Shown here one piece after another: positions 2,867 to 31,228 of a DNA stretch of 37,120 nt. A program made the translations under genes and the position numbers. Under the pieces are notes generated by a model. The model saw only the letters and a program-made list of their open reading frames with translations, did not search any database and was not told the origin of the DNA. The stretch lies in NCBI GenBank assembly GCA_938084455.1, contig CALKDX010000061.1, positions 1 through 37,120 on the forward strand. The letters run 5' to 3'. Numbering within the stretch: the stretch's first letter is position 1; the number at the start of each line of letters is the position of its first letter. This DNA comes from Candidatus Poseidoniaceae archaeon. GTDB taxonomy: Archaea; Thermoplasmatota; Poseidoniia; Poseidoniales; Poseidoniaceae.

Positions 2867-3790
2867 TCAATCCGTCGATGGGGCCGAAGGGGTCAAAGCA
2901 CCGTGAACGATGAAGAAATCAGCCAACTTAGAGGCATGGAGTTTAGCCTCGTCTTTCCCTTCTGGCCAGTCTTTCATCGCGAGGTGAACTTGACTTACAA
3001 CATCAACAGGATGATCGCCAACCAAAAGTCGGTGCCAGACGAGTTCTTCCAGACGGGGGGTTGAGAGGTTTGAGTTGGTCAGTGCAGGTAAAACCAATTC
3101 TGATAGCGCTTGAGTCCTTGCATCAACATCCATTTTTGGCCATGCCTTGGAAAGCCTCGATAACATGCGTTGTGAAAGATGTGGGATCATTGATTCAGAA
3201 GGAGATGGGACATCAGGCAACGCAACAACTCGCAAAGATCCTTCACCACTTAGCAGGTCTCGGATAGCGGTGTGCACGGGATCAAATGTGGTATCTAGGG
3301 CCTCTCGAAGCCATAATCCCGATCCTGCAAATGGCCTTAACCGTCGCACACGTTGACCGTTAGGGGCAAGTTCTGCAGCGATTGCTGCACACTGTGCTAC
3401 AACATCTAAAGCACCACGTCGCTCACTCTTCTTAGAACCAAGTCTGATGTTGACTGCCAGGGGTGTGATGTGGAGGTATTGTTTTTGTTGGACTTCAGAA
3501 ACATCCCAAGTGTTTTCAAAGGGGTCCAAAAACAACAGGCAACCATCGTCGGTTTGGTTGGGATGAACCACTTCATCTCGTGGCAAAGTGCGATGCGGTG
3601 GCATAAACCGCCGAGCATAAGGAAGACTCAAATCCAAGCATGCGGCCTCGATGAAAGCGAGACCCAAGACACCCACCGCATCCGCAGGTGCATGAATGTG
3701 AACCATTGAGGCGGAGCGAATGCTCTCGCAGATGTTCTCAAGCAGAGAGCGAGCATCGTTGAATGGAGGGGATGCTAACAGATTGTTCAT
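2867..3790 (-). CDS. RecJ/DHH-like protein lacking catalytic motifs (candidate Cdc45/GAN-like pseudoenzyme)
   Basis: About 307 residues. Position is the main clue: many euryarchaea carry a RecJ-like DHH phosphoesterase directly after rps15, and this gene is 70 bp after rps15 on the same strand. The N-terminal segment (MVHIHAPADAVGVLGLAFIE) looks like a decayed version of the first RecJ motif, where active enzymes have DADG after a beta strand. A later segment (CLLFLDPFENTWDV) occupies the place of the second Asp motif, and no DHH triplet is found. Archaeal RecJ-family proteins include GINS-bound Cdc45 counterparts, some catalytically inactive. The gene may therefore encode a replication scaffold and not a nuclease. 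The start is the ATG at 3790, preceded by GGTGG; upstream GTGs at 3802 and 3799 are alternatives. The family call is an inference from context and weak motif resemblance. Confidence 0.55.
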   Translation of the reverse strand: MNNLLASPPFNDARSLLENICESIRSASMVHIHAPADAVGVLGLAFIEAACLDLSLPYARRFMPPHRTLPRDEVVHPNQTDDGCLLFLDPFENTWDVSEVQQKQYLHITPLAVNIRLGSKKSERRGALDVVAQCAAIAAELAPNGQRVRRLRPFAGSGLWLREALDTTFDPVHTAIRDLLSGEGSLRVVALPDVPSPSESMIPHLSQRMLSRLSKAWPKMDVDARTQALSELVLPALTNSNLSTPRLEELVWHRLLVGDHPVDVVSQVHLAMKDWPEGKDEAKLHASKLADFFIVHGALTPSAPSTD

Positions 3791-3831
3791 CGCTGCCACC
3801 ACTCTAACGGTGTCGATGGTTGTTCATCAGC

Positions 3832-3860: not shown

Positions 3861-4319
3861 TCACTCGACCATTAGGCGGAGTTCGTCTCGCTTGTATCGC
3901 CAATCTGATGGAATTTGACCTTCAGCCTTGTAGTAATTTGCCAATCGGCGAATCTTTGCTTCGGTGATTTCAAGCGAACGCTTGTTGTGAAGATCCTTGT
4001 GGTTGCCACTGCCGAGGTGGTTGATGATGCCGACTGCTTGGCGCATGAGGTTCATCATATCTTCAGGGTAGGTGCCCCCGATGTCGTTTTCGGCTAGGAC
4101 AGCACCGATGCGCTTTCCTAGAACGAGGCGAACGTTTGGCACTGCGTGTTGATCGCGTAGAATGGTACCAATGGCTGCTGTGGAATGTCCTGCTTTACCA
4201 AGTTCTAGAATGAGTTCTGTAACTGCCTTAGCATCGGTGTTTGACCACTCAGGTGCTTCACTCACAAAGGGCTTGGTTGAGCCGCTCTTTCCTTTCCGTG
4301 ACTTGTACATACGTGCCAT
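3861..4319 (-). CDS. rps15: 30S ribosomal protein S15 (uS15)
   Basis: 152 residues, the usual length of archaeal/eukaryotic S15, which is longer than the bacterial form. The N-terminus (MARMYKSRKGKSGSTKPF) and the WSNTDAKAVTELILELGKAG segment are typical of the archaeal extension. The core contains the family-typical HLGSGNHKDLHNKRSLEITE and the ending RLANYYKAEGQIPSDWRYKR. The protein binds 16S rRNA in the small-subunit platform. The start codon follows GGAG at about eight bases, a good ribosome-binding site. It lies 112 bp downstream of arcS and 70 bp upstream of the RecJ-like gene on the same strand. The 112-bp gap leaves room for a separate promoter, as expected for a highly expressed ribosomal gene. 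Confidence 0.97.
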   Translation of the reverse strand: MARMYKSRKGKSGSTKPFVSEAPEWSNTDAKAVTELILELGKAGHSTAAIGTILRDQHAVPNVRLVLGKRIGAVLAENDIGGTYPEDMMNLMRQAVGIINHLGSGNHKDLHNKRSLEITEAKIRRLANYYKAEGQIPSDWRYKRDELRLMVE

Positions 4320-4431: not shown

Positions 4432-6207
4432 TCAAAGACGCTGATGTGACTTCGCCAGACGCCCCGGAGTGGACGGCCATTCCCAACCTGGAGCTTGGGC
4501 CCGAGCGAGTCCAACGACGGCGCCATCTTGATACACAAGCAAATCTGCTCCAGTGCGAATGTCTTCATCGAACCGTTCGACAATGGTGCCAAATATGTCC
4601 CCCTTCCATTTGACATCTGCACGTAGGTGAACGGCCGGCAGTGCATTGGTGGAAGCCAAATCCTGAATCACGGCCTTTGAAAGCGAAAAGCCCCCTCGAT
4701 CAATCGACCATAATGCCACCTGTGTTCCATCTTTTTCCAAGCGGTAGCGAGGAGGTTTGCCACGAACCTTTAGTGGCTTTACCCAGTCATCGTTCTTCAT
4801 TGTCTTTCGGGCTACGCTGGCAAAGGTATCAAGCAGCATGCGTTCATTTTTTCTGCCACGAGCGCTCAATTCATCGACAGCAGCCCGAACGGCCTCAGTG
4901 AGTCGCTCGAGTGCTGCGTGGCTACCTGCACCCTCGCCGCTTCTTGTGTCAATGACATCGATTGTAGCGTGCTCCAATTCCATGCCGGAATGATTGATGA
5001 TGCGTTTGTAATTGTGGCGATCGACGAGCCGTTGAAACATCCTACGGATTCGGTCCTCTTCGTCACTGCTCCAGTCTCCCGTGACGGGAAGATCATAATG
5101 GGCAGCAGGCCAAACTTCTTCCAAATCTCTTGGCACAAGGCCAAGCGGAGAGGTCACCATCACCTCATGGCATGCACTGGTCCCAATCGCACGGATAAAA
5201 CGTCCATGAGATTTTGAGAGACGGTACGGTTTTCTCGCCGAACAGGGCAACAACACCAGAATGGTATCCAATCCTTCTGGAGCGGTGTAGGTTTCACTCA
5301 TGAATGATTCCCAATCACCGATCAGAGGGTCGGTTTGTATTGATGCACTGTGGCAAGGGAATGCGTGGGTGCGGGCAACATGGGAAGAAAGCAAGCCTGG
5401 AAGATTCGAGCAGAGGGCGTCATGGCGTCGCAAATGCTCCACAGATCGTGCGCTGTTGAGCGATTGCCGGTCCACAAGCGAACGCATTTGATCGGTCGAT
5501 AGGGCTGAGCGAACTTCCGCAATGGCAGCCTCCCAGTGCCCCACTTGATCCTTCATGGAAGCAGATTCACCCATGGATTCGACAGGATGACGTGGTCCAT
5601 TCCCGGTCAAAAGAACCCCTGCTGCAGTTGCCTGCCTGCTTCTTGAGAGGTCGAAAAGATCAACACCGAACCATGTGAGAAGCGCCACGTTGTCTGGACC
5701 ACCAAGGCCAGGTGTCCAAAGAAGGGCTCCAGGAAATTTACGTTTGAGGACAGTGATTGCTTCAATCAACCGACCCGGTTGTGATGCAAGTTGCAACGCA
5801 TCCACCAACACCACAACATCAGGTTTGAGCGTTGGGTCGGTCAATGCGTCATCGTGGTTCAATCGCTGCCATGAGACTGGAAGCAATTGGGCCGTTCCAG
5901 CTGGCTCGCCTGCATCTGCCTCTTCAAGCGAGGGAGGAAGCACATGGCCGACTGAGACCGTCCATTCTGGTGATGGAGCCGCAAAGTCGGGTGGGGAAAG
6001 TGGTAGCCTGCTTCTCATCGACAACGTGGATGGAATGGTGGTTGTGCTCGTCGATTCGAACGGGGCAAGCGCCGCATTGACATCGATGTCTCCATCCAGT
6101 AGGACGAGAGCGGGTGTGAAGGCAACTGGGTGCTTTCGGTCACCCAAAGCCCATGAACGAGCAAACCGATGCCGAGCGATAACGCTGCGTCCCAACCCTT
6201 CGCCCAT
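4432..6207 (-). CDS. arcS: Archaeosine synthase ArcS (TgtA2), tRNA-guanine transglycosylase-related with PUA domain
   Basis: About 591 residues. ArcS acts after TgtA has placed preQ0 at position 15 of archaeal tRNA and takes part in converting preQ0 to archaeosine. The N-terminal half is a divergent TGT-like barrel (SVIARHRFARSWALG, then PVAFTPALVLLDGD). At residues 321-334 is the ArcS signature PCSARKPYRLSKSH, matching the conserved PCS, KPY, Ser and His residues of the family. The C-terminus (about 520-575, LPAVHLRADVKWKGDIFGTI) is a PUA RNA-binding domain. The frame stays open upstream to 6519, but that part overlaps the signal peptide of the divergent gene and has no family resemblance. 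I start at ATG 6207; an in-frame TTG at 6249 is possible. It heads the minus-strand run leading to rps15. Confidence 0.88.
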   Translation of the reverse strand: MGEGLGRSVIARHRFARSWALGDRKHPVAFTPALVLLDGDIDVNAALAPFESTSTTTIPSTLSMRSRLPLSPPDFAAPSPEWTVSVGHVLPPSLEEADAGEPAGTAQLLPVSWQRLNHDDALTDPTLKPDVVVLVDALQLASQPGRLIEAITVLKRKFPGALLWTPGLGGPDNVALLTWFGVDLFDLSRSRQATAAGVLLTGNGPRHPVESMGESASMKDQVGHWEAAIAEVRSALSTDQMRSLVDRQSLNSARSVEHLRRHDALCSNLPGLLSSHVARTHAFPCHSASIQTDPLIGDWESFMSETYTAPEGLDTILVLLPCSARKPYRLSKSHGRFIRAIGTSACHEVMVTSPLGLVPRDLEEVWPAAHYDLPVTGDWSSDEEDRIRRMFQRLVDRHNYKRIINHSGMELEHATIDVIDTRSGEGAGSHAALERLTEAVRAAVDELSARGRKNERMLLDTFASVARKTMKNDDWVKPLKVRGKPPRYRLEKDGTQVALWSIDRGGFSLSKAVIQDLASTNALPAVHLRADVKWKGDIFGTIVERFDEDIRTGADLLVYQDGAVVGLARAQAPGWEWPSTPGRLAKSHQRL

Positions 6208-6291
6208 GGCTTGGCCTGCGGCCCTTGCTTCTTGAAAGATTGGAAGCAAATCATGCCTTAAGTTGAAAGCAAGTTCCCAACAGCCACCAGC
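6208..6291. promoter_or_regulatory. Divergent promoter region between arcS and the 741-residue membrane protein
   Basis: An 84-bp gap serves two divergent genes. A self-complementary CTTAAG at 6257-6262 lies about 30 bp before the plus-strand ATG, a position that fits a TATA-like element for a leaderless transcript; the same element is about 50 bp before the arcS ATG (6207). No purine-rich ribosome-binding site precedes the plus-strand ATG, which also fits a leaderless message. If arcS started at TTG 6249 the gap would be only 42 bp. Confidence 0.3.
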
Positions 6292-8517
6292 ATGGACGGG
6301 ATGAACGCAACCCTTCGTGCCATCACCTTGGCACTGGTGCTCGTCCTCATGACGGTGGCTTCCCCGGTAGAAACCTCGGCACAAACGCCTGAAGCCAACC
6401 AAGAAACCGTCCGCGATGGGCGGATTATTGGAGTCCTCACTGTCCCCGACCAAACCTATGAGCGCACATGGCAGATGAAGCAAGGGGAATGGACAAGTTT
6501 GAGCGTTGATTGCGATCAATGCAGCGTAATGTTAGAGCTTGATGGGGTTTCGACAAGCGTGACTTCAACGCTCAATGAACAGGCGGATGAAGATCAAACG
6601 ACTCGAATGACCATCACATCACCCATTCAGGAATTTGTGTCGTATTCACTGATTGAAGCAATTGATGAAGCCAACCCGACCGTTCGCCCCAGCCCGGGAG
6701 AGGCAATGGTGTCTTCACAAGCATGGATGTGCCAAATTGAGAGCGACTGTTTTGATACAACTCGAAGTTTAGATTCAATTCCATCAAGTGAATTTGACTC
6801 CGAACAGTTCTTGACAGGTATGCTCCAACAAAACCAAGCGGAATTTATCGCCGTACCAGCGACGAAAGGTCAGACTTTGGAATTGAAATTTTCCCACCTG
6901 ACAGGTGATGTGGAACTTCAAGTCTTTTTCCAAAACGAAACTGAAACGTTGTTGAGTCAAGGGATTTCGCACAATGTTCCGTTGCCAACCAACAGTCAAA
7001 CAAACTCTGAGTTTTGGTCCGCAGAAGGGGATGGTCGATTCATCATTAAAGTCTCAAGTCAATCGCCGGAAACTGCCTATGCATTGATGCGAACCGTTCA
7101 CCTCAACGAGCAAACATCCTCCATGATTGAACTTGGTTCGAGCCTCATCCTGCATGGCCATCATTCCAAGACTGTTGTTGTCGAAACCAATGACACATTT
7201 GCACTCACCATAGAACCGCTTTACAGAAACTTCACAGGCCAGGTTGAGCAACTGGTTTCAGGGTCATGGTTGTCGGGCACATCGATGGAATTTACGCATT
7301 CAGAAGTTAGCCACCTCTACCCCTATCCAAACGCTTCTGCCTTCAAGCTCTCAATCGATGGTGAACGGTTCGCCTTTGAGTTGAGCGGCAAGTCCTTTGC
7401 AGATCTTGATTCTGGCCAGGAGGCACCGACTGTCCGCCCATCAAGCAACAATGTGAGCAACAGTTCATGGCCGCAACTTTACCCCCCCGCCGATGGGATC
7501 GAGGGGGAACTCACCTTGGCGATTCATGACACTGCTGATGTGTTCAAAATCGAAGTGACCGGATATGAATCATCAATCCACCTAATCCAAGTCAAGGTGC
7601 TCAGTGAGCAGTTGGAACACCTCCAACTCGAATTGTGGGACATTGACCAAACCACTTGGGAAGTGGTTGATGAACGAGTTGTCCAGCAAGTCAATGGGAA
7701 GCTGCAAACTGCGTTGGAACTTCAACCTGGAACCCATTTTGCTCGAATAAGTCACGTGGATGTTGCCAACGCCACTAATCACAGTTGGGGGTCGAATGCC
7801 GACCGTTTGCCGTATGTGTTGTCGACCGCCTATACGATGATTGACGAAGGCGATGAACCCTATTTCCCACCCGATGATTCAACAGTGAAATGGGGCGAAG
7901 TTGCCCGGTGGGTGATGGGTCTTTTGTTCCTAGTCCCCTGCCTTTACTTTGCATTGATGTTCTCGGCTGACAGAAAACTTGCCCAAGAATTGTCCGTCAA
8001 AACTGCTCAACTTCAGTGGTTCAAGAGCCAGATGGATGCGGGACAGGAAGCCCCTGCTAAACTTCGTAAATCACTCGATCGTTCCCTCCAAGCCATCACT
8101 CAGCTCGATTGGGCGACGGCGTGTGACACTTGGGGCCCAACAGATATCGAACATCGAACCGATGGACTGGCGATGGCCGTATGGCGACTTGACCCGAGGT
8201 TAGCTAACCAAGAAGGTGCATTACCCATCATGGTGGGAATCCACATCACCCAAGGTAACTGGGAACTTGCTGCACTCCGATTTGACGCCCCAGAAGGTGA
8301 AGGATGGACGGTGGGGCAAGTCGAGCCAAAATTCCTCCACAGAGGGGAGGAAATCTTCGTCGACACCATGCGTGAAGGTAACCTCACATTCCTCACCCTT
8401 GAATTGCAGGGCAGTGCTTCAGCAGTTGACATTGAAATGAATGGACGTTGCAACGGTGAAGCAATGGCAGCGAAGATTCCTCGCACGTTGCAAATGATAA
8501 GCAAAGAGGAAGAATGA
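6292..8517 (+). CDS. Single-pass membrane protein with large ectodomain and about 180-residue cytoplasmic domain
   Basis: 741 residues. The N-terminus (MNATLRAITLALVLVLMTVA, from the second Met) is a signal peptide ending near ASPVETSAQT. The ectodomain, about 520 residues, contains beta-sandwich stretches resembling bacterial prepeptidase C-terminal (PPC) domains, for example EFIAVPATKGQTLELKFSHL and the segment after GIEGELTLAIHDTADVF. A single TM helix lies at about 541-561 (WVMGLLFLVPCLYFALMF). The remaining 180 residues are cytoplasmic, start with a helical stretch and contain WDIEHRTDG-like mixed alpha/beta sequence that I cannot assign. The gene is divergent from arcS and ends flush against dnaJ. 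The architecture fits a surface receptor or scaffold; no enzymatic motif is visible. Confidence 0.85.
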   Translation: MDGMNATLRAITLALVLVLMTVASPVETSAQTPEANQETVRDGRIIGVLTVPDQTYERTWQMKQGEWTSLSVDCDQCSVMLELDGVSTSVTSTLNEQADEDQTTRMTITSPIQEFVSYSLIEAIDEANPTVRPSPGEAMVSSQAWMCQIESDCFDTTRSLDSIPSSEFDSEQFLTGMLQQNQAEFIAVPATKGQTLELKFSHLTGDVELQVFFQNETETLLSQGISHNVPLPTNSQTNSEFWSAEGDGRFIIKVSSQSPETAYALMRTVHLNEQTSSMIELGSSLILHGHHSKTVVVETNDTFALTIEPLYRNFTGQVEQLVSGSWLSGTSMEFTHSEVSHLYPYPNASAFKLSIDGERFAFELSGKSFADLDSGQEAPTVRPSSNNVSNSSWPQLYPPADGIEGELTLAIHDTADVFKIEVTGYESSIHLIQVKVLSEQLEHLQLELWDIDQTTWEVVDERVVQQVNGKLQTALELQPGTHFARISHVDVANATNHSWGSNADRLPYVLSTAYTMIDEGDEPYFPPDDSTVKWGEVARWVMGLLFLVPCLYFALMFSADRKLAQELSVKTAQLQWFKSQMDAGQEAPAKLRKSLDRSLQAITQLDWATACDTWGPTDIEHRTDGLAMAVWRLDPRLANQEGALPIMVGIHITQGNWELAALRFDAPEGEGWTVGQVEPKFLHRGEEIFVDTMREGNLTFLTLELQGSASAVDIEMNGRCNGEAMAAKIPRTLQMISKEEE

Positions 8518-15123: not shown

Positions 15124-18100
15124 TCACTTCATCATGGATTCGACGTATTGCCATCCAAAGTGGTTCCATTGATCTTGTGTCCAACCTTCAGGAAGACCAG
15201 TCGGAGGAAGTGGAGGCGGAGGTCGCTGCTGGGAGGTGGAGGTTTGTGCTGGAGCTGTGACCGGTTCAGTGGCCGCAGGTGTGTTTTGAGCTTGGGAATC
15301 TCCCAAGAACACATCGGGTACATTCTTGGCCTGATTGAGGTCCTCTAACACAGATTCTGCTTCGTCTGTCACACCACCTTCAAGCTCTTCGACTTTCATT
15401 TTTCGAGTCATAACAAGCATCCACATGGCAAATGAAAGTGAAACGATTGCGACGAGGTAGAGAACGATGGCAAAGGTGCTCTCAGATGCTTGTTGAGCAA
15501 GTGCGTCGCCATCACGCACCGTTTCCCCCTTGACAATCAATGGATCTACAGTTCGGCGGTCCATTTCGACTTCATCCACGAGAACAAGAACACGGTATTC
15601 CACTGTTTCCCCGGGGCTAACATCGGCTATTGTCGGCAATTGTGTTTCCGTTAGACCGCCCGCTGATGCAACGACATCGCTTCTTGCTACTTCTGCCCAA
15701 AAGCCACCTTCAACAGCGCGCTGTAGGACAAAAGCGACATCGCCCTTGCCGCCTTGGTTGAGAACCATGACATTGAGGTTGACTGCTAAGCCTTCAACTG
15801 GGGAAGGATTGCTCCATGACAATCGTGTGTCCTTATGACTAAAATCCACGGATGGTCCAACAAGCGCCAACGGCCATGAGGCAATCGGCGTGTTGATCGA
15901 GTTGTCGATTGTATCAAATGGATTGCCAGCAGCGTCAGAGCCGGATACCCAGACATCAACGACATAGGACGGCAACAGGACAGTGGCTCCAGAATCTGTG
16001 AGATCGAGGGCCCCTGTCCAGAAGAATTGGTCGCCAAACGGTGTTGTCTCTGGGAGGGGGACGCTGCCACGCGAAATTTCTGCCTCACCTGCTCGAACCC
16101 TGTAGTGGAGAACTGCCGGTTCGTCGAGGTCGAATCCATAGTCGTCAATGGTTTCGAGCATCACCAGCAAGTCGCCTGCTTCACCGATTGAGAGCGGTGA
16201 ACCTGAGGAGACTTCCTCGAGCGAAATGGCTGCAATTGTTGGTCGCGTGCTGTCAACCGCAAGGCGAACACGAGGAATGATTTGCGTTTCGTCCATCGCC
16301 AAACCAGGTAGATCGTCCATATCCAAACGGAGATCGAGCTGACCGGAACGAACGGATGGGACCAACAGGTCGAGGCTGAATTCGCCGGCTTCCCTTGTCG
16401 ATGTTCGCCAAATATGGTCATAATCCCCAAACACGACATCAAAGGCGCCTGCTGGAGCAGGGGTTTCATCCTCCGAGAAGAGGACTCGACCGCTGACGCG
16501 GAGGGCTTGTCCAGCACCGATGAGCGTTTCCTTGAAATCGTCATTGTAATGATTTGTCCCGTCGCGAAGTTCGACTGCTCGTATGTGACCGTCCATCGTG
16601 TCGAATCTGAAGTCATTGTCCAGGCTCCATGCATCATTGCCCAATCCTGCTTTGGCTTCGAAACATGGCGTGACCTCCCCTTCATTGCATGGTAAATCAG
16701 TCACCAGGATTTTAGGGATCACTTGATTTTCTCCGTTGGTATCGAAACTCTCAGGGAACGTCCAAGTCAATTGGAACCGTGCGAGAATCTTGATGATGCT
16801 GTTGTTGTTTTCGTCAAGTGAGACCGAGGAATACAAATTGGAAACAGCTATGTTGTTTGAGCCAGATTCCATGACGGCTTGGGGCTCACCGTTTTCGTCA
16901 GCCATGAGGGAGATGAACACCGAAGTATCATCGTCGTCATAATCTCCGCCAAGAGCGAGTTGGACATACTGGATATCTTGCCAACCATTGCGATCGGAGA
17001 GAACAATTTGAGCGGAGTACGGAATACCAGGGTGCAAAGCAGCTTGGTCATCGTGGCCTAAAATGGTAGAATTATCCAAATCCAATTGCGGTTCAAATTC
17101 GACGCGGATTTTGTAAGTCCCCAAATCATTGTTCCAATCAGGTTGTGTTTCGCCAGGGGCGTAACCACAGGGCTGACTTGAGTCTGGACACACAGGTCCA
17201 CGACCCATTGCAACAGCATTGTTTTGTGCGTCTTTTCCTGTGACGTAATAGGACACGCGTTGCCCATGGGTGAGCATTGAATCATCAATGAGTCCTTGGA
17301 AGATGTTAAGGCCACCTGCTTGAATCTCAGGAGAGGACAGCGTCTTCAATTCATATTCATCTTCATTAGGCAGTCCGTCAAAGTTGTAATCGCTGCAACC
17401 AATCGCCGAACTTGCTTTGCATCCAATCCAGTAATGCAGAGTGATTTGGTTTGGTGGGTCAACCGAATCTTGAATGACAACGCTGAGAGACTGACCTCCT
17501 GGTGCAGGCGGTCCAGCGTGGCGTTCTTCACCATCACCGGGGGTTGATGAAAGGACAAGTGGTGAATTTCCATCCAACACCAAACGCATCGAATTGTAAC
17601 CGGGGTTAGCATAAGTGGATCCGTTCGGTAAATCTGTGGCTATGACGTAGAACACCATTCCACCGGGGGCAGATTCCACAGGTGAGGTGAAGGTGATGTT
17701 GTACCTTCCAAATGCAGGATTTTGCTCTGTGGCCAAGACGACAGGTTCGCCAATCGGATCTCCATCATAGGTTACATTTTGCCCAATAATGGTCAAGTTG
17801 AACTGTCCGGCAAGGGGGGATAGTTGTGAATTTTGGAAGTGTATACCTCCTGTGAAGGTGAGGTTGAAACCACCTCGAACCCAATCGAGGTTGTACAGTT
17901 CTCTGGTGCCTTCTTCATAGATACGAAGCCCATCGAGTTGGATGTCATTTTCCACAACCAAATCAAGGGATGGCGTTTCCCAAGCGGCAACGGCCAGTCC
18001 GAGGGCATCTTCAACCGAAATCAAGGCTTGTGTTCCCGATTCATCATCCCAACTCCAATCGATGGTCATCGGCATCCGAATTGAAACAACACCCAATGCA

Positions 18101-20532
18101 TCCGTGGTCGAGGTGCAATTTGCCGCGTCAAAGACGACAATTCCACCACCATCGCTGACAACAGAACAAGCATCACCGCGTTCCCATGAGAATGCAGGAT
18201 TCTCACCGTAGGAATTGCTCAGCGCCACCAAGGCATCGGTGACGTAGTCAACATCATCGCCAGGTGCAACGCGTGTGATGAGATTGCGATAGACACCATC
18301 AGGGGCGACCATGCCGCCCTCTAGTGAAGCATCAACTGCCCGGGTTTGCATCTTGTAAGCAATATCGATGTTGGAAATTTTCACCCTTCCTGAACTCGCT
18401 GCTTTGACTGCAATTGGGATCAAAACATCGCCTTCGCCATTATCAGGGACTGCCGCATTGAACGCTGCGATCAATGTGGGTGCAAACTTCACATCCACCG
18501 AGACGACGGATTCATCGCTTGCCTCAACAGCAGATTCATTGAGGAAAAGCAGGGATTCCCAATCCCAAACTAAGTCGTTACCAACGTCAAGTTGAGGCCG
18601 GTCGGGATAGCCCTCTTCGTACTCAAGGAGCATTGTATCAATCATCGGCGTTACAGAAGGGTCGCTTGTTGACATGCTCACAGCATATCGAACGATTGAA
18701 CCAGCTTCATCGGCAGAGAAACTAACTTCTTGGCCGTTGACTGCAGGCAACCATGTGGACCCATTGTCGTTGGATACCTGAACTTGGAGGGATGTGCCAA
18801 CCGGTGTTGTTGAAACCCACTGTGGCCGGACCTTTCCGACCTTTGTACCGACCGTTAACGGGTCTGATGTCCATGAACCACTGGCGACGTAGGTCGTTGC
18901 CATCTCGACATCGACCCACCAAGAAACTGCTGTTGAACCGATGAGTTGAGCTTTCCACACGAGGTTGTTTCCGGGATAGGCAAAGTGAATGGTTTCATTG
19001 GAAACGACAGATTCCCAGTGAGTTCCATTATCTGCAGAGATCCAATAATCAACTCGGTCACCTGTGGAGGCGGCGGACCAGTAGGTCTGCATGTTAGCTG
19101 CGACGATGTTTTCGCTGGAAGTGGTCACTGGACCGTACCATGTGGTCGTGCCGGGAGCAGGTGTTGTTTCGTATTGCCAACCAGTACCATATTCACGATA
19201 ATACAGGGTAGAGGAGGACCAAGTTGAATATCCACAGTCAACGGTTACGAAGTGATTTCCATCGTACTGCAAGCCATATCCAAGGGCTGAAATCAAGCGG
19301 GTTCCAAGTTGAGGGACGAGGGAGGTCGAGGACCCGGAAATGGACCAGGCTTCGAGTTGATCTTTGTCTTGGCTCGTCGAACCTTTTTGACATCGCATGA
19401 AGAACGTGGTGTCATTCACTTCGAGGCCACGCACTTGCTGTCCTGTTTTACCACATTCGAACGATGAACCTGAGGAGGAGGAATACGAATACATGTTCGA
19501 ACCACGCGTGTATTGTCCATCAGCGGCATCAGAGAAGGTGTAGGGGACAATCCGTCGCTGGGTGTTATGAACAATCCAAACTTCTTCTGTTGTGCGATCA
19601 TAGGCAATAGCAGTGTAGTCCGAATATTGTGGAGACACATCATACGTATCGAGGCAAACCCACGTATCGTCCCGAGAAATATCCATTTCCACAACACGGT
19701 GATATTGTGTCGGGGCAGAGGCACTGTAGTGATAGCGATATCCTGACAGAATTGCGAACATTCGTTCGTCGTCTGTGACCGCCCAATCACGGAATCCATA
19801 CGAACCGTAGTAGGTGCTCGGGTGAAGGAAATTGATGTTGCAAGAACCTTCATCGAGGTGCAAGGTGGATTCCCTCGTGAGGTTGTTTGGGTAGAGTCGT
19901 TGGACGATGTTATTGAAATTCGATGAACTCCAAGTGGACATGAACACCCAATCGTGGTGTTGAAGAATGGCTCCTTGGGACTGTTTCATCAACGCAGTAC
20001 TTGTTTTTAGGGTCTGCTGGGAGAACCGGCTTTCGGTGGCGTTCGAGGTGTGCGGCTGCCGGAGCGCATAGGAACCATTGTCCAGCCAAGCATCGGAATT
20101 AGGATCTGTAATTTCGTCGTAACCATGCGAGAAGAAGGCCTCAGTGGTGTTCTCGAAGGCGAGGCTGAGGTCACCGCTACGTGCATCGCTGGAGGAAGGT
20201 TGACCTGCCATCCAATCTGATCGATCGTCATCGAGAATTTGTGACCAACCGGTTGCTGATGCCCCTGAAAGGGTCATGGTGACATCGGTAATTTTTGCCC
20301 CCCTTGGCAAGGCGATTTCCGCGCCTGCGTCGGGATTTCCACCTTGATACAGGGCAACATATTCTGTTGAGCCATCGGCGAATTCGTAGACGTGGCGAGC
20401 GACGCCTGACGCCTCGGCGGGTTCCACCACGACATCTGCAAGAGGTGACATTGGTGAGAGCACCATGATGGCAAAAAGCATGAACATCACGCCGCGCCCG
20501 GATGAAATGTTGTCATGCATGACGCTTCCCAT
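15124..20532 (-). CDS. Giant anchored surface protein with C-terminal TM helix and Pro/Trp-rich tail
   Basis: 1802 residues. The signal peptide is GVMFMLFAIMVLSPMSPLAD. The N-terminal 450-residue region after it has repeated aromatic/Ser/Thr beta strands (TYDVSPQYSDYTAIAYD, EVWIVHNTQRRIVPYTF) that may form a beta-propeller. The middle consists of many Ig-like beta-sandwich segments; one calcium-loop-like element, NYDFDGLPNEDEYELK, is seen. A TM helix (FAIVLYLVAIVSLSFAMWML) lies near 1685-1705. The cytoplasmic tail of about 95 residues is Pro/Gln-rich and ends with GLPEGWTQDQWNHFGWQY. It is 57 bp after the even larger calcium-repeat gene and 10 bp before a small helical gene. Likely an S-layer-like or adhesion protein. 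A second Met at 20520 is a possible start. Confidence 0.88.
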   Translation of the reverse strand: MGSVMHDNISSGRGVMFMLFAIMVLSPMSPLADVVVEPAEASGVARHVYEFADGSTEYVALYQGGNPDAGAEIALPRGAKITDVTMTLSGASATGWSQILDDDRSDWMAGQPSSSDARSGDLSLAFENTTEAFFSHGYDEITDPNSDAWLDNGSYALRQPHTSNATESRFSQQTLKTSTALMKQSQGAILQHHDWVFMSTWSSSNFNNIVQRLYPNNLTRESTLHLDEGSCNINFLHPSTYYGSYGFRDWAVTDDERMFAILSGYRYHYSASAPTQYHRVVEMDISRDDTWVCLDTYDVSPQYSDYTAIAYDRTTEEVWIVHNTQRRIVPYTFSDAADGQYTRGSNMYSYSSSSGSSFECGKTGQQVRGLEVNDTTFFMRCQKGSTSQDKDQLEAWSISGSSTSLVPQLGTRLISALGYGLQYDGNHFVTVDCGYSTWSSSTLYYREYGTGWQYETTPAPGTTTWYGPVTTSSENIVAANMQTYWSAASTGDRVDYWISADNGTHWESVVSNETIHFAYPGNNLVWKAQLIGSTAVSWWVDVEMATTYVASGSWTSDPLTVGTKVGKVRPQWVSTTPVGTSLQVQVSNDNGSTWLPAVNGQEVSFSADEAGSIVRYAVSMSTSDPSVTPMIDTMLLEYEEGYPDRPQLDVGNDLVWDWESLLFLNESAVEASDESVVSVDVKFAPTLIAAFNAAVPDNGEGDVLIPIAVKAASSGRVKISNIDIAYKMQTRAVDASLEGGMVAPDGVYRNLITRVAPGDDVDYVTDALVALSNSYGENPAFSWERGDACSVVSDGGGIVVFDAANCTSTTDALGVVSIRMPMTIDWSWDDESGTQALISVEDALGLAVAAWETPSLDLVVENDIQLDGLRIYEEGTRELYNLDWVRGGFNLTFTGGIHFQNSQLSPLAGQFNLTIIGQNVTYDGDPIGEPVVLATEQNPAFGRYNITFTSPVESAPGGMVFYVIATDLPNGSTYANPGYNSMRLVLDGNSPLVLSSTPGDGEERHAGPPAPGGQSLSVVIQDSVDPPNQITLHYWIGCKASSAIGCSDYNFDGLPNEDEYELKTLSSPEIQAGGLNIFQGLIDDSMLTHGQRVSYYVTGKDAQNNAVAMGRGPVCPDSSQPCGYAPGETQPDWNNDLGTYKIRVEFEPQLDLDNSTILGHDDQAALHPGIPYSAQIVLSDRNGWQDIQYVQLALGGDYDDDDTSVFISLMADENGEPQAVMESGSNNIAVSNLYSSVSLDENNNSIIKILARFQLTWTFPESFDTNGENQVIPKILVTDLPCNEGEVTPCFEAKAGLGNDAWSLDNDFRFDTMDGHIRAVELRDGTNHYNDDFKETLIGAGQALRVSGRVLFSEDETPAPAGAFDVVFGDYDHIWRTSTREAGEFSLDLLVPSVRSGQLDLRLDMDDLPGLAMDETQIIPRVRLAVDSTRPTIAAISLEEVSSGSPLSIGEAGDLLVMLETIDDYGFDLDEPAVLHYRVRAGEAEISRGSVPLPETTPFGDQFFWTGALDLTDSGATVLLPSYVVDVWVSGSDAAGNPFDTIDNSINTPIASWPLALVGPSVDFSHKDTRLSWSNPSPVEGLAVNLNVMVLNQGGKGDVAFVLQRAVEGGFWAEVARSDVVASAGGLTETQLPTIADVSPGETVEYRVLVLVDEVEMDRRTVDPLIVKGETVRDGDALAQQASESTFAIVLYLVAIVSLSFAMWMLVMTRKMKVEELEGGVTDEAESVLEDLNQAKNVPDVFLGDSQAQNTPAATEPVTAPAQTSTSQQRPPPPLPPTGLPEGWTQDQWNHFGWQYVESMMK

Positions 20533-20589
20533 GCGTGGGCACAGGAGAGGGAGGCTTTAGACAATACGCCGTCGTGTCAGTCGGCTTCA

Positions 20590-23500
20590 TCAGCCAGTTT
20601 GACGTGAATCATAACGAATCGGAGAGGAATCGCCCCGAACCCCGTCTTCTTCATCGTCGCGAACTTCGAACCAGTCCACCATCCAATCACCATCGGTATC
20701 CCAGTTGGTCGGATCTGTTCCCTCAGCAATGTGATCGTTGTCGTAATCCAAAAGATACCAGCCATACTCATGTTCACCAACAGCACGAACCGGCGCTGTG
20801 AATGGCGAACCAGAGTAGTATATCTCCCATGCATCGGTCCAATTTCCGGCCAGATGGACCTCATCATCACCCGCATCAAGAACAAGGAAATTAGAGTCCT
20901 TGTCATCAACAATGTAGGCAAAACGGATGTCATTGGAGAAGGATTTGTCCATCTTTAGATAATTTTCCGAACTGGAACCTGTTTCATCGAGGCCCAGCAT
21001 GGCAGCTCTGAATTGCCACCATTCTAGGACAATTTCGCCGTCATAGATGAGGCCACTCAAGCGAACTGCATTTGGTGATGAGAATTCACTGTCCGTTACG
21101 GCATAGAATTCTTGGAAATTGGTGTACGGTTCATAGACACAACCTGCTCCGCTGCAATCCCAATTTCCATCTTGATCAGGGTCCAGATTCGCATCCAAAG
21201 GATCTGCTGGGTCCAATGTGAACCAGGTGTAGGTCAAGTCTGGACGGCTGAGAATACCATCAGCGCCTTGTTGTGAAAGTGGCAAGCAAGAATTCGTATC
21301 GGTGTCGCATTGACCTCCTGTCGCAGCATCAATCCAAACCACTCGGATTTGAAGGAATGAACTGAAGTTGTCATTTGATTCGTTCCAAGCCTTGGCATAC
21401 TCATACCAATCGGGTATCATGTCGCCATCTGTGTCGTTATCGCTCGGGTTAATCCCGTACTTGAACACCTCACGACCGTCAGAGAGATTGAAATCTCTGT
21501 CGTGAGCAACAACAGCACCATTAGAGATTGTGGTTGTGTACGAGATGCTGTCACCGTCTGAATCATTGAGGTCTGGACGAGTATCGTTATCCCATTCCAT
21601 CCAATTGGTGAACGGCAAGTCACCGATGCCTGGTTGGACAATGGAAGAAGATGGCGTGAACACGCGCCCATCCCATGTGCCTTGGCCAGCAGGTATGTCG
21701 AACGCAGAGCGGTCGTACCATCCATCCCGGTCACCGTCGTAAGCCACATCCCAAGGATTGATTGGGTTAGAAGCCCAATGGTTGATTGTAGATGGGTCTT
21801 CCATCCCATACACGGCATAGCAGAATTCCCAACCATCAGGTATCCCGTCGCCATCAGAATCTGCGCTTGTTGGATCGGCGACTCCGATGAGGGTCCGGTT
21901 GAAATTGTCGAAATTGTTCTGGTTAATCTTGGTCATCCTTGCCGCACTTTCCGGGGACTTTTCGATGAAATCATCGTAGAGGGCATCTTTTGCTTGAACG
22001 AGAGTCATACCGGTTTCTTCCATGTAAGCTGACATGGCGTCTTCGCCGAAATCAATGATGCCTAAAGCTGCAGGAACGGTGGTTCGTTCGCTGTATTTGC
22101 CCCAGGTTCTTGACTCCCATTCGCGTAAATTCGTGAATTGTTCTTCTTCGCTGATCGAGCCGTCGTTATTGCAATCGAAGCTGTCCCCGTCCGTGTCAAG
22201 ATTGACGTCATTGTCAATCAGGGGGTTCATGCTCCAGCGATTTTGATCAAGGTCCCATTCTGTAAACCAATATTCGAATCCATCGTACATTCCATCGTCG
22301 TCCGTGTCCGGGTTGGTCGGATCCGTCATGCCCAAAAGAATAGAGATAATTGCATTGGGCGGTTCGCCTTGCTGCCACCCATTGAAGTCTGTGAGCAACC
22401 GCTTGCCTCTGGTTTCTTTTGTGATCAGGATGTTAAACACCCGTTGTGCTTTTTCCGAGGCTTGCTGGGCATCGCCGTCAATGTGGAGGAGTGGTGCGTC
22501 GCTGGGTTGATCAATGCCGTTATCGGGATTGGTGGTCGCTAAAGCAAATTCCTGTGCATCGATGAGTCCGTCTTCATCACCATCGAAATTACCATCCCCA
22601 GCAACGAGTGGATTCAAGGTCCATGTCTCGGCTGAAAGGTTCCAAGCAGTAAACAGATGCTCAATTCCGTCAATCATACCATCTCCGTCCGTATCGACGT
22701 TGTTTGGATCCGAAGTCCAGCCACTGATGTTAATCTGTTCTTGCGTCAAGAAAGAGCCGAACGATTCTGTTGTCGAGATGCTTGGCCACTGTTGAAGCGC
22801 AAATGCCGATCCGACCGTGGTGACAAACCATTGAGGAGAGGAACGATTGGCGTCGGTCTCGCTGTATTCGGGGGCAATGGCGTTGTACTCTTCCCAATTC
22901 GCCATCCCGTCTTCATCTGCGTCCTGCCAGCGATCGCTTGCATCAAGCGGGTTCAGAGTCCATGCATCGGCTAGAATGTCCCATCGAGCAAACCAAATCT
23001 CCCATCCATCAGGCATCCCATCGTTGTCGGAATCCGCATTGAGTGGGTCCGCTGCACCCTTGCTAGTGAGTGGTTGTGGTGCAGTAACTGCTCCGGAGGC
23101 ACGCTCGCCAAAGGTGCCTTCTGGCGCCCCGTAGTCACCGATATTTTGGAATAAGTCAGTGCTGAAACCGTCTGGGAGTGGTTGACCAGTCAGGGTTGTG
23201 TTGGTGCTGAACAAGTCAGAACGAACGTGGAATTCAAGCCAGTTGACGAAGGCCTCGTTCTCTTCAAGAACGCCATCTCGGTCGATGTCATAGCCGTCCC
23301 CGTCTGGGTTTTCAAATAAATCCGAACCGTTGAGTGGGTTCACGCCTCTCCGCGACGGGTCCCAGTCACAGGCTCCGTCTGACTCCCACCCGTCTGGCAA
23401 GGAATCACCGTCAGAGTCGACGTTGTTTGGATCTGCAGTGGACCAAGATTCTGCCGCCTCCGCAGTTTCCCCGTGAGTTTCGAGCAACAGGCCTTCCATT

Positions 23501-26343
23501 GCTGCACCCTTTACCAATGACCATTGGTATTCACACAAATTTGGCAAACCATCTCGGTCTGCATCCCAATTTGCATCATCTGCTCGGTTTGGGTCGAGTG
23601 ACCAATTATTGCCGCCGGTGAAGCTCGAACCGACCCATCGGCGGTGAGTGATTTCCCATCCATCAGGCATACCGTCACCATCGGAATCGAAATTCGTCGG
23701 GTCCGTACCAAGGTCACTTGACGACAGGCCGAGGTAAGTAGCGTTGGCAGCAGCGCCCGTAGCATCATCGCACACGTACTCTAACTGCACGGTATAATGG
23801 CACCAAAGGTTGCTTTCTTGGTAGAAAAATCCGAAGTACTCCTCACCATCACCGAGCCCATCCCCATCGGTATCACCGACGCGAGGGTTGGTCGAGTTGT
23901 AACCTTGAGTGGTTGTTTTGACGTACCTAAATTCGTCCAAGTTCGTCCACAGGCGTTCTAGGAAACCATCGTCCAATTGATCAAGGTCCAGCCCGTCCCC
24001 ATCCATATCAAGAAGGGCATCCCAGGGATCTGTCGGGTCAAGACCATTGGCGACTTCCCAGCCATCCGGCATGCCATCGTTATCAGAATCGTTCGCACCT
24101 GGATTCATCAGTTCCAGATTGGCATACATCCCCGGTGCAGAGCCAGCAAGGATGGTGATGTTGCCCTCATCGGCAAACCAATTCAGCGTGGTCAACTCAC
24201 CATAGATGGCCTCTTGGTTTTGCAGACCATACACTGCTGTGTAATCACCTGTGATGGCCCATAGGCCCTTTTGGGACCCAATAAGAAGTTCGTCACCGGT
24301 TGGGAAAATGGAGTGGATGTTGTTGAGTTCTCGAGTGAATTTTCCTTCGAGACCTGGGTGTTCGAGCAATCCGCTATGGCTGATGGAATTGCTGAGCAAG
24401 TCCATACGATGCAAGCCCGATGGCGTTCCAAACCAGACCACTTGAGCGTTGTCTGAATTCGGCCCATCGATGACCAAAGTTCGAACTTCTGCTGGATTTG
24501 CAACCATGCCGAGGGAAAGCGATCTCAATTCATCAATATTGGTTGGAATTGGAGTGGTTTCCGTGGTGTAATGGAACCGCCATGTAGCTGTGAGGTCGTC
24601 GCGGACGGTTGCCGTTTCTGCAGTAATCATCCCACGGTCGGTCCCAACAATCAGCATGTTGGTGCCACCACCCACAGCACCATGCGCAATGGATGTCACG
24701 CTGGCGTTGGATTCACTAAGCAGGGAAGTGAGCGTGGCTGATAGAGCATAGGTATCGACAATACTACCTGCTGAATTGATTTCAATGACCGCACCTGCTC
24801 CAGCATCGCCTAATGCCACTAATTGCTGGTTTTGTCCTTCAATGTCGAGCATTGTAAGTGCGTTCAATCCATCGCCCATGCTCCATGACCAGCCGCTTAA
24901 TTCAGAGAACGATCCGTCGGCTTGCAGTGGCGCCACCGCAAGACCTGCGCTTGTTGCTAGCGCAAGAGCAAAGGCATCGTCTTCATTCTTCAAAAGCAAT
25001 GAATCATGCAGTTCTACCCCTTGTGGCATCCATTGATCTGTGTTTGAACCGAGGTCCATGTCAAGGAATGTCAAGCCGTAGCGCGTGGTCACATAGACAT
25101 TGGTTCCATCCGTTTCGATGTCACGTATGTCGTAATGCATGACGCTCAATTCTTCAACTGGGGCAGTGAACGAAAGGGGGACCATTGCACTCGTACCCTC
25201 TCCGGCGCCATAAGCGACGGTCTTCAATCCGGCAATGACAGTGTTGCCATCGTCTTCGTGAACGAGGTATTCTTCGAGTGTGGACAAGGCTTCACCCAAC
25301 TTGATTGCAGTCAGGGTACGGCTTACATCCGGCGATACACCTCCGTCACGGTTGGCATCCCAGCCATCTTGGTCGTGATCGATTAAAGCGTTGGTTCTGT
25401 TCAGTGGGTCGAGTCCGAAGTGAACCTCCCAACCATCTGGTATTCCATCTCCAAAAGAAGGGAAGAGTCGTCGAACTGAGAAACCGTCCCAGTGGTATCG
25501 GTCTGAATCATCGAGGAGGGGGTCGGTTCCGAGCCACAAATCTTCATCGACGACATTCGTGGCGTTGGTTGTGCACGCTGAAAGTAAATTGTCAAAGGTG
25601 GCGTTTGCACCGGTTGGAATGAAAGGCCAATTGAGTAAAATGGAGCCTTCTGGCAGGGTCGCAGAACACCAAAGTCCATCCAATTCAGTGGTGTGATTTG
25701 CTGGTGCCCCTTGTCTGTATTCCTCGGGAGAGGTGAACCGTTCGGTGACCGAGAGCACACCGTCACGGTTGACGTCAAATCCGTCTTGGTCGGGGTCATC
25801 TGTGAGGTCACTGGCATTCAATGGATCGAAAGCAGGACAAACATATCGGAGTGTGAAGATGTCGAACCCACCCGTACGGTGGCACATGTAGGCTTCGTAG
25901 CCATCCGGCATACCGTCACCGTCAGTGTCAGCAACTCGAGGATCGAGGTAACTTCGGTCCCCTTCAGCGTTAACGGTGCCGGTCAAGCCCCGTGGGAATC
26001 CAGAAGCAGTGCAGTTCGCTGGGTATGGCCAACAGTATTCCTCAGTAGCGTTCAAACCGTCTTTATCAAAATCGACGAAGGCATCTGATGCGTCTTCACG
26101 ATTCATACCCGGTATGTACACATCCCGACCATCGACCGTGGTCCAATTCATCCATTCTTCGAATAAATTTTCATGGACATCCGGTATTTTGTCACCGTCC
26201 GTGTCTGTCGAAGGCGGACGTTCCCCCTCTGTGGTTTTAGGATGGACGCTGGAAACCGAGGAAATCGCAGGAAATTGCGACATAAAGACGAGGCTCGCCA
26301 CAACAGCAAGCGTGGTGAGAAGAGTGGTTAGGCTTCGTCGCAT
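20590..26343 (-). CDS. Giant secreted protein with about 14 thrombospondin type 3-like calcium repeats
   Basis: About 1917 residues from ATG 26343 (the frame extends to a TTG at 26361, but MRRSLTTLLTTLAVVASLVF is a clean signal peptide). Acidic modules of the form DxDxDGMPDGWE recur at least 14 times, for example DTDGDGMPDGYE, DSDNDGMPDGWE, DSDGDGIPDGWE and DTDGDMIPDWYE. These are thrombospondin type 3/EF-hand-like loops that bind calcium and stiffen extracellular proteins. Spacers often begin with LDP or NPL plus WD. Residues about 400-745 lack repeats and look like a beta-propeller (IRDIETDGTNVYVTTRYGLT). No C-terminal membrane helix or lipobox is seen; the protein stops after a final repeat at RYDSRQTG, so anchoring must be by another partner. 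It leads the four-gene surface cluster and is probably co-transcribed with the next giant gene. Confidence 0.9.
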   Translation of the reverse strand: MRRSLTTLLTTLAVVASLVFMSQFPAISSVSSVHPKTTEGERPPSTDTDGDKIPDVHENLFEEWMNWTTVDGRDVYIPGMNREDASDAFVDFDKDGLNATEEYCWPYPANCTASGFPRGLTGTVNAEGDRSYLDPRVADTDGDGMPDGYEAYMCHRTGGFDIFTLRYVCPAFDPLNASDLTDDPDQDGFDVNRDGVLSVTERFTSPEEYRQGAPANHTTELDGLWCSATLPEGSILLNWPFIPTGANATFDNLLSACTTNATNVVDEDLWLGTDPLLDDSDRYHWDGFSVRRLFPSFGDGIPDGWEVHFGLDPLNRTNALIDHDQDGWDANRDGGVSPDVSRTLTAIKLGEALSTLEEYLVHEDDGNTVIAGLKTVAYGAGEGTSAMVPLSFTAPVEELSVMHYDIRDIETDGTNVYVTTRYGLTFLDMDLGSNTDQWMPQGVELHDSLLLKNEDDAFALALATSAGLAVAPLQADGSFSELSGWSWSMGDGLNALTMLDIEGQNQQLVALGDAGAGAVIEINSAGSIVDTYALSATLTSLLSESNASVTSIAHGAVGGGTNMLIVGTDRGMITAETATVRDDLTATWRFHYTTETTPIPTNIDELRSLSLGMVANPAEVRTLVIDGPNSDNAQVVWFGTPSGLHRMDLLSNSISHSGLLEHPGLEGKFTRELNNIHSIFPTGDELLIGSQKGLWAITGDYTAVYGLQNQEAIYGELTTLNWFADEGNITILAGSAPGMYANLELMNPGANDSDNDGMPDGWEVANGLDPTDPWDALLDMDGDGLDLDQLDDGFLERLWTNLDEFRYVKTTTQGYNSTNPRVGDTDGDGLGDGEEYFGFFYQESNLWCHYTVQLEYVCDDATGAAANATYLGLSSSDLGTDPTNFDSDGDGMPDGWEITHRRWVGSSFTGGNNWSLDPNRADDANWDADRDGLPNLCEYQWSLVKGAAMEGLLLETHGETAEAAESWSTADPNNVDSDGDSLPDGWESDGACDWDPSRRGVNPLNGSDLFENPDGDGYDIDRDGVLEENEAFVNWLEFHVRSDLFSTNTTLTGQPLPDGFSTDLFQNIGDYGAPEGTFGERASGAVTAPQPLTSKGAADPLNADSDNDGMPDGWEIWFARWDILADAWTLNPLDASDRWQDADEDGMANWEEYNAIAPEYSETDANRSSPQWFVTTVGSAFALQQWPSISTTESFGSFLTQEQINISGWTSDPNNVDTDGDGMIDGIEHLFTAWNLSAETWTLNPLVAGDGNFDGDEDGLIDAQEFALATTNPDNGIDQPSDAPLLHIDGDAQQASEKAQRVFNILITKETRGKRLLTDFNGWQQGEPPNAIISILLGMTDPTNPDTDDDGMYDGFEYWFTEWDLDQNRWSMNPLIDNDVNLDTDGDSFDCNNDGSISEEEQFTNLREWESRTWGKYSERTTVPAALGIIDFGEDAMSAYMEETGMTLVQAKDALYDDFIEKSPESAARMTKINQNNFDNFNRTLIGVADPTSADSDGDGIPDGWEFCYAVYGMEDPSTINHWASNPINPWDVAYDGDRDGWYDRSAFDIPAGQGTWDGRVFTPSSSIVQPGIGDLPFTNWMEWDNDTRPDLNDSDGDSISYTTTISNGAVVAHDRDFNLSDGREVFKYGINPSDNDTDGDMIPDWYEYAKAWNESNDNFSSFLQIRVVWIDAATGGQCDTDTNSCLPLSQQGADGILSRPDLTYTWFTLDPADPLDANLDPDQDGNWDCSGAGCVYEPYTNFQEFYAVTDSEFSSPNAVRLSGLIYDGEIVLEWWQFRAAMLGLDETGSSSENYLKMDKSFSNDIRFAYIVDDKDSNFLVLDAGDDEVHLAGNWTDAWEIYYSGSPFTAPVRAVGEHEYGWYLLDYDNDHIAEGTDPTNWDTDGDWMVDWFEVRDDEEDGVRGDSSPIRYDSRQTG
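20645..26209 (-). repeat. Dispersed calcium-loop coding repeat within the giant secreted gene
   Basis: A degenerate DNA repeat of about 35-50 bases, read on the plus strand as variants of CCATCNGGCATNCCGTCNCC followed by GTCNGAATC, recurs at for example 21833, 22990, 23388, 23653, 24060 and 25902. It encodes the DxDxDGMPDGWE loop. Copies differ at synonymous positions and spacing is irregular (roughly 200-700 bases), so this is a protein-domain repeat, not a tandem DNA array. Confidence 0.8.
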
Positions 26344-26575
26344 AGGAACACCGGGGGCCAAGCATAGGCTTCGCTAACCTTCAACCTCAAATCGACACTT
26401 ATGAGGATGATGGAACGATGTTCGGACATTTCTGAATTATGCGGCTAATATTTCAATCCCAATCACATCTAAAAACCGGTTTGAATCAAACATAGCAACT
26501 GTCAAATGAGCGTATACACATCAAATCATAGCGCACTGTTCAAGTTCCGAACGCGCTCAGGCCGAGTTGAACCCC
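26344..26575. promoter_or_regulatory. Divergent intergenic region between the giant calcium-repeat gene and the YycJ-like gene
   Basis: This 232-bp stretch is the largest non-coding gap in the window and must hold promoters for both directions. It is AT-richer than the neighbours. TATA-like stretches are ATATTTCAA near 26447 (GAAATATTAG on the minus strand) and GCGTATACAC near 26509-26519 on the plus strand, about 60 bp before the YycJ-like start. No tRNA or stable long hairpin is apparent. The element positions are guesses from sequence resemblance. Confidence 0.4.
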
Positions 26576-30755: not shown

Positions 30756-31228
30756 ATCACAACGCACTTCGCAGAGATACAAACGCTGCTGCCACCGAAT
30801 TAGGTTACATCTTCACATTTTTGCTTGGCGTATTGTTGCTCACGATGTTCAGTTTGTGGGCTTGGGACATCGAAACCGCTACGCGCGAACGATGGAATGA
30901 AAATGCAATCCAAGCCAATATGGATGATTTGGCAGCAGCAGTCGAACGCGCTGATGAAGCGAGTCGAATGGGTGCTGTGGATTACGCAGAGCGAGTGGAA
31001 TGGAGACTTACCGAAGCAGATGAGTCACGCATGACCATTATCTTGACCGATACCAACATCGAACTGATTCATGACACTGGAGATTTAGACACCAATGTCT
31101 CAATCTCAGGAACCGGTGCTGGAAGTCATGAAGGGACACTCACCCTCGCTGGAATCGATAGCATTTGGGTTGTGCATTACCAAGGCGTCACATCAATTGA
31201 ATACGATCGCCCTCAACACCAGCAGTAG
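30752..31228 (+). CDS. Small pilin-like protein (third of operon)
   Basis: 158 residues from ATG 30752, which overlaps the stop of the giant pilin (ATGA). The reading frame extends further upstream to 30674, but that part overlaps the preceding gene and lacks a signal. The N-terminus is MNHNALRRDTNAAATELGYI followed by a hydrophobic helix (FTFLLGVLLLTMFSLWAW): an RRD signal, then a TELG motif similar to the SEVLG of the first gene. The rest is short, with a helical EAASRM-type stretch and a beta domain ending in DRPQHQQ. Its length is typical of a pilin or pseudopilin. The TAG at 31226-31228 lies two bases from the convergent STAND gene's stop. Confidence 0.82.
   Translation: MNHNALRRDTNAAATELGYIFTFLLGVLLLTMFSLWAWDIETATRERWNENAIQANMDDLAAAVERADEASRMGAVDYAERVEWRLTEADESRMTIILTDTNIELIHDTGDLDTNVSISGTGAGSHEGTLTLAGIDSIWVVHYQGVTSIEYDRPQHQQ

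Follow-up and report, generated by a model that had tools for sequence, protein, structure and literature searches.

The gene directly downstream of rps15 in the stretch of DNA analyzed here (37,120 nucleotides of a Candidatus Poseidoniaceae genome, referred to below as the window) raises the question of whether a RecJ/GAN-type protein that appears to have lost its nuclease motifs could still serve replication as a counterpart of Cdc45. The reading frame is real: it covers positions 2867 to 3802 on the minus strand, with a GTG start and 311 codons. An in-frame internal ATG at 3790 is the commonest start among relatives and yields the coordinates, 2867 to 3790, used in an earlier note on this DNA that was made from the sequence alone. 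We annotate the putative Cdc45/GAN-like gene, whose DHH domain is dead and whose DHHA1 domain is missing, from this ATG, and the in-frame GTG at 3802 is a possible start. The gene was said to follow rps15, and it does: ribosomal protein S15 is encoded directly upstream at 3861 to 4319 on the minus strand (NCBIfam S15 equivalog, E 3e-53). The remaining neighbors lie on the minus strand as well. Upstream of rps15 is a conserved gene for a DUF5591 protein (4432 to 6519; PF17884, E 1e-39), which we take to be an ArcS-type archaeosine synthase. Downstream of the Cdc45-like gene are a 116-amino-acid (aa) open reading frame (ORF) at 2491 to 2841, with matches mainly in family f1 and none to a protein family, and the conserved neighbor on the other side, a 685-aa secreted or membrane protein (374 to 2431) whose gene directly adjoins rps15 at loci lacking the Cdc45-like gene.

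Within the GTDB family to which the window belongs, 158 of 170 genomes contain a match to the Cdc45-like protein. Among genomes of the class that are at least 85% complete, the family is present in 82 of 96: all 50 of family f1, 32 of 38 of family f2, which we take to be Thalassarchaeaceae, and none of the 8 of family f3, presumably MGIII. The Poseidoniales (f1 and f2 together) thus account for 82 of 88 such genomes, and the named relatives are records of Candidatus Poseidoniaceae or Poseidoniales. No relative of the protein was found among IMG/VR viral contigs. Between close relatives, the NG86 dN/dS ratio is 0.037 to 0.065 in the five of seven chosen pairs for which it could be computed, the other two containing N bases. 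Because 158 of 170 genomes hold the gene and dN/dS is this low, the Cdc45-like ORF is not a decaying reading frame. The suggestion that it is fast-evolving finds mild support: mean identity is 35%, compared with 44% among intact GANs matched for S15 divergence (60 to 70%; six GAN pairs).

In all 38 family loci examined, the gene adjoins rps15, on the same strand in 36, and the gene for the 685-aa membrane protein follows in 37. In the two exceptional loci, L098 and L107, the Cdc45-like gene and rps15 lie on opposite strands and so cannot form one operon. We compared these loci with 20 other rps15 loci of the phylum, 4 of them from the window's own class and 1 ending soon after rps15; an intact GAN/RecJ-type gene follows rps15 in 14. 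The block that encodes the 685-aa and 116-aa proteins (374 to 2841 in the window) is inverted in several f1 genera (for example, L043, L048, L050, L051, and L053) relative to others.

Sequence searches gave no family assignment. The window protein had no match in Pfam or NCBIfam (0 families at E ≤ 10) or among PDB sequences; the curated Pfam DHH, DHHA1, and DHH-CID models and the NCBIfam RecJ models did not match it; and 29 members matched seven families at E ≤ 1, none of them a DHH family. These empty single-sequence and HMM searches alone would suggest an orphan protein, a reading set aside when profile-profile and fold comparison gave GAN/RecJ. Using hhalign, we compared a profile of 44 family members with one of 18 intact GAN/RecJ proteins (13 of the 14 rps15-linked ones and 5 others). 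Family columns 15 to 261 aligned collinearly with GAN residues 9 to 285, with a score of 48.7, a probability of 83%, and a single-pair E of 9e-6. Fixing the match states to the window protein gave a score of 50.2 and a probability of 85%, and global mode a probability of 91%. The nulls peaked at 25.3 for 150 column shuffles, 28.4 for 100 block shuffles, and 13.3 for reversed profiles, and four neighboring gene families, used as real-family controls, scored 11.8 to 19.7. Against a 14-member GAN set (A3) the score fell to 33.5 and the probability to 18%, a score that nonetheless exceeds those of all the shuffles made with the 18-member set. Posteriors are 0.96 to 0.99 over residues 20 to 60, fall beyond about residue 80 (to about 0.2 to 0.5 in the middle), and are 0.7 to 0.95 over residues 220 to 270, which correspond to the stretch of GAN immediately preceding DHHA1. 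When 250 genomes of the phylum were searched, only eight matches came from outside the order, all below threshold; five of them fall in the motif I region of intact RecJ/GAN proteins of 428 to 514 aa, and the other three were not fetched.

Structure searches pointed the same way. AlphaFold models of two members, built from 13 sequences, are of low confidence (pLDDT 50 and 56). When they were searched with Foldseek against 350,542 PDB chains, only RecJ, GAN, and RecJ-Cdc45 structures occupied rows 1 to 23 for model 1 (best match GAN 5ghr_A, E 2.8e-4) and rows 1 to 20 for model 2 (best match 7bih_B, E 2.7e-3). VIA-align gave a Z of 12.2 to 5ghr_C for model 1 (149 residues, 4.0 Å) and of 10.0 to 5ght for model 2 (154 residues, 4.4 Å), with sugar isomerases and unrelated DHH proteins ranking below GAN. 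TM-scores are low, about 0.3, so the structure search supports a DHH fold without proving it. An unrelated predicted fold, which would have told against a RecJ-like protein, did not emerge: RecJ/GAN structures top both Foldseek lists, albeit from low-confidence models. The DHH-domain fold of the Cdc45-like protein should be read as a supportive prediction of the models only. The region matching the GAN DHH domain by hhalign, Foldseek, and VIA-align comprises about residues 15 to 190 (numbered on the 311-aa form; 3233 to 3760, minus strand).

It could be argued that the likeness to RecJ/GAN is not homology at all and that an unrelated Rossmann-like protein came by chance to lie after rps15. The lack of any significant match to Pfam, NCBIfam, or PDB by single sequence or profile HMM speaks for this, and the hhalign probabilities of 83 to 91% fall under the usual 95% comfort line, with a weak middle of the alignment. 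The profile-profile score nevertheless far exceeds the shuffled and real controls, RecJ/GAN ranks first in two structure searches, and the chromosomal slot is shared with GAN. A chance resemblance is already disfavored by these results and, in our view, highly improbable. As the profile comparison and both structure searches bear out, the Cdc45-like protein is very likely homologous to the RecJ/GAN/Cdc45 branch.

We next consider the active site, numbered on the GAN of locus L155 from the profile alignment with the 18 intact GAN/RecJ proteins. The earlier note had read HAPADAVGVLG where the DADG motif should be and LFLDPFENTWDV in place of the following Asp motif, with no DHH triplet; both strings are indeed present in the window protein, and the triplet is absent. 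In the motif I remnant, VHIHAPADAVG (residues 34 to 44; 3671 to 3703, minus strand), the invariant GAN H34 corresponds to P39 (H in 1 of 44 members), D36 to D41 (D in 20 of 44), and D38 to V43 (D in 1 of 44), so that 43 of the 44 have lost the second DxD Asp. In the motif II remnant, FLDPFE (residues 91 to 96; 3515 to 3532, minus strand), GAN D85 corresponds to D93, with a posterior of 0.55, and D is found in 17 of 44 members. The GAN DHH triplet at 105 to 107 is unaligned in the family, and the only DHH string among the 44 members (L051) is in a different region. The claim that the DADG and DHH motifs were lost thus holds for D38 and for the triplet, which has no counterpart. It needs refining for the DxD motif, where one Asp survives in the window protein as D41, and the motif II Asp may also be retained there, as D93. 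Loss of the active site is well supported by this alignment, and the protein would lack nuclease activity.

The C-terminal DHHA1 domain is absent as well. All 44 members are 279 to 324 aa long, whereas the aligned rps15-linked GANs measure 424 to 466 aa; no member contains GGH, and the alignment stops before DHHA1. What precedes the lost domain seems to be retained. A helical region at residues 205 to 270 or thereabouts (2993 to 3190, minus strand) matches by alignment the central GAN segment before DHHA1 (CID/linker), in a part of the protein where Pfam DHH_CID gave no match and the models are weak. We also considered whether DHHA1 persists as a separate gene, with a 336-aa DHH-DHHA1 protein of the same genome (C66) as the candidate. 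This was rejected, since similar matches of about 330 aa occur in class genomes with intact GAN (G177) and without it. Among ORFs of at least 60 aa in the 38 family loci, GGGH was found in only one, a 132-aa ORF within the ArcS region of L098 that we take as spurious.

Ten columns are invariant across 44 diverse members, several of them charged, and the protein might therefore still be an enzyme, with an active site rebuilt from the newly conserved W164, D170, D174, R250, E252, and E253. Position 174 is D in all 44 members, and position 170 is either D or E in every one of them. Weighing against such an enzyme, the DxD and DHH motifs have gone, and so has DHHA1, the domain by which the substrate groove of RecJ is closed according to PMC5484177. 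The invariant residues also lie partly in the CID/linker-matching region (W221, R250, E252, E253, W256, and D267), where a binding surface would fit. We give a rebuilt active site very little credence and favor a noncatalytic protein.

If so, does the genome encode a second, active RecJ? No intact one was found. Two DHH proteins were found in the window's own genome, C90 (470 aa) and C66, neither of which is a RecJ above the NCBIfam cutoff. C90 was the candidate for an intact RecJ, as it carries DHH and DHHA1 domains, but its NCBIfam matches are pyrophosphatase/NrnA-like; C66 matches the archaeal RecJ model at the DHHA1 end only. Across the order, a GAN profile matched with its N-terminal DHH part in 0 of 88 Poseidoniales genomes, while matches to the DHHA1 region only were found in 65 of 88, mostly in ORFs of about 325 to 380 aa. 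Full-length GAN was detected with this profile in 1 of 96 class genomes (G177). The loss of DHHA1, the lack of intact RecJ/GAN in the order, and one genus without the gene had been overlooked in the earlier note.

A GINS partner appears to be available. A GINS-like protein was first traced by weak Sld5 matches, and its gene lies at G000:C95:528-1589 in the window's own genome. Of 20 genomes chosen for a survey, 17 encode it; these are all from Poseidoniales, with 5 of 5 genomes of genus g13 among them, and the 3 genomes from f3 gave none. Pfam Sld5 alone is too insensitive for these GINS genes, with matches above its cutoff in a single genome of 96 and a single control of 14. The best PDB match of the GINS-like profile is the PSF1 B domain (E 0.16). 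At E ≤ 1, Sld5 (4 of 14 members) and PSF1_C (3 of 14) are the most frequent Pfam matches, and two members match NCBIfam Gins23 (best E 3e-6). The putative GINS assignment rests on weak but concordant matches, and the protein may be either PSF1-like or Gins23-like.

Taken together, the gene is probably a degenerate GAN ortholog that encodes a noncatalytic, truncated Cdc45-like subunit of the replicative helicase. Four observations lead us to infer the helicase role: the homology, the position of the gene, the contact domains that were kept, and a GINS gene in the genome. In this scheme, an archaeal GAN ortholog would have kept its slot after rps15 and lost both the two-metal active site and the C-terminal DHHA1 domain. 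The PSF1-like GINS protein would dock through its B domain onto the β-sheet of the DHH domain, the CID region would contact the MCM ring, and the two contacts together would brace that ring. In the accounts given in PMC5484177 and PMC12035558, the DHH domain binds the B domain of GINS51/PSF1 and the CID binds MCM. By analogy, the Cdc45-like protein would bind GINS and MCM and stimulate the helicase. With DHH and apparently CID kept and DHHA1 gone, it would suit a scaffolding role in which it braces GINS and MCM but does not handle DNA.

Genus g13 counts against this role, as it keeps a GINS-like gene without a Cdc45-like gene. No copy was found in 5 of 5 g13 genomes with a more sensitive profile. 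In the one of the five in which the rps15 locus was seen (G183, L156), the gene order is ArcS, S15, 685-aa protein, with nothing between the last two. Either the Cdc45-like protein is not strictly required in g13, or it has changed beyond recognition there. The same genus, along with the far divergence from GAN and the fixed position beside rps15 and the ArcS-type gene, could be taken to mean that a dead RecJ/GAN homolog works outside the replicative helicase, as a scaffold or regulator of translation or tRNA modification. The slot after rps15 is, however, the ancestral place of GAN, a replication protein, as described in PMC3307487, and the retained half is the one that contacts GINS and MCM in homologs. 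We regard a translation or tRNA role as unlikely and retain the helicase subunit as the preferred reading, although a moonlighting role could have been acquired in this old clade, the Poseidoniales.

The other absences lie in f3. There, G177 has the order S15, GAN, methyltransferase, TrxB, and genus g23 (L153 and L154) has S15, methyltransferase, TrxB, with GAN missing (product names were assigned by eye). The lack of GAN at rps15 in g23 is a clean absence, independent of Poseidoniales. The g23 genome G175 encodes a separate Sld5-matching protein of 230 aa. A stepwise dismantling of Cdc45/GAN in the class, from intact (one MGIII-like genome) to a dead contact half (Poseidoniales) to none recognizable (two genera with GINS-like genes), is a tentative reading that we find possible rather than likely.

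The closest comparison is archaeal GAN (arCOG00427; Thermococcus kodakarensis GAN, PDB 5GHR/5GHS/5GHT), with which the window protein shares the position after rps15, a DHH-type fold by structure search, collinearity to the CID, and a GINS-like gene in the genome. Thermoplasma belongs to the same phylum as Poseidoniales. Archaeal GAN and Thermoplasma acidophilum RecJ2 are active nucleases with DxD, DHH, and DHHA1, whereas the window protein has lost DHHA1 in its entirety, DHH, and one of the two DxD Asp residues. RecJ2 is described in PMC7776575 as active and CMG forming, and Sulfolobus Cdc45 as truncated and GINS binding.

Dead RecJ/Cdc45 proteins beside rps15 are already known from other archaea. 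In PMC3307487, Makarova et al. (2012) describe dead RecJ by rps15 in Halobacteria and Desulfurococcales and a very divergent one in Thermoproteales, and propose the dead proteins as structural parts of CMG. Sulfolobus RecJdbh/Cdc45 (arCOG05902), Desulfurococcales arCOG00432, and Thermoproteales arCOG05692 resemble the window protein as RecJ-family Cdc45 counterparts with dead DHH domains, and an rps15 neighborhood is described for the last two (PMC3307487). They are separate inactivations in another phylum, set apart here by their descriptions, not by their sequences; arCOG05692 is described as keeping most DHHA1 core elements, unlike the window protein. Halobacterial arCOG00428, also compared by description, is a dead DHH protein in an rps15 neighborhood of a euryarchaeal lineage (PMC3307487). 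Halobacteria are, however, described as encoding further RecJ homologs (PMC7776575), and no intact RecJ/GAN was found in 88 Poseidoniales genomes. Eukaryotic Cdc45 is likewise a noncatalytic RecJ-fold protein of the CMG helicase, and human Cdc45 (5dgo) appears at a VIA-align Z of 8.8, but according to PMC5484177 it keeps DHHA1 and a long DHH insertion. It is also about twice as long as the window protein. Neither "marine group" nor "Thermoplasmat" appears in the main text of PMC3307487, and our literature search found no description of a Poseidoniales Cdc45/RecJ. What is new here is a case, apparently independent, in which DHHA1 has been lost and the order has no intact RecJ.

PMC6461757 describes Poseidoniales (Marine Group II) as the planktonic archaea with the highest abundance in surface ocean water. 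A Cdc45 counterpart of about 300 residues with neither the nuclease site nor DHHA1 would reveal the half of Cdc45 on which the helicase depends, and the Poseidoniales protein would offer a compact natural construct with which to test MCM activation by GINS and Cdc45. The intact, dead, and absent series at the rps15 locus makes the dispensability of Cdc45 in some archaea testable. If stepwise dismantling were true, some archaea would replicate with GINS and MCM without Cdc45, contrary to a universal archaeal CMG.

Some minor observations accompany these results. The small DNA primase family has two matches in 6 of 16 genomes, the window's included (G000:C39:11866-12561 and G000:C74:6355-6699), with the second in ORFs of about 430 to 540 aa. 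Two adjoining, very long ORFs of 1802 and 1923 aa occupy positions 15127 to 26361 of the window and, judged by their N-termini, probably encode large surface or secreted proteins. At 27442 to 31225 are three successive ORFs whose N-termini resemble archaeal pilin/archaellin signal regions.
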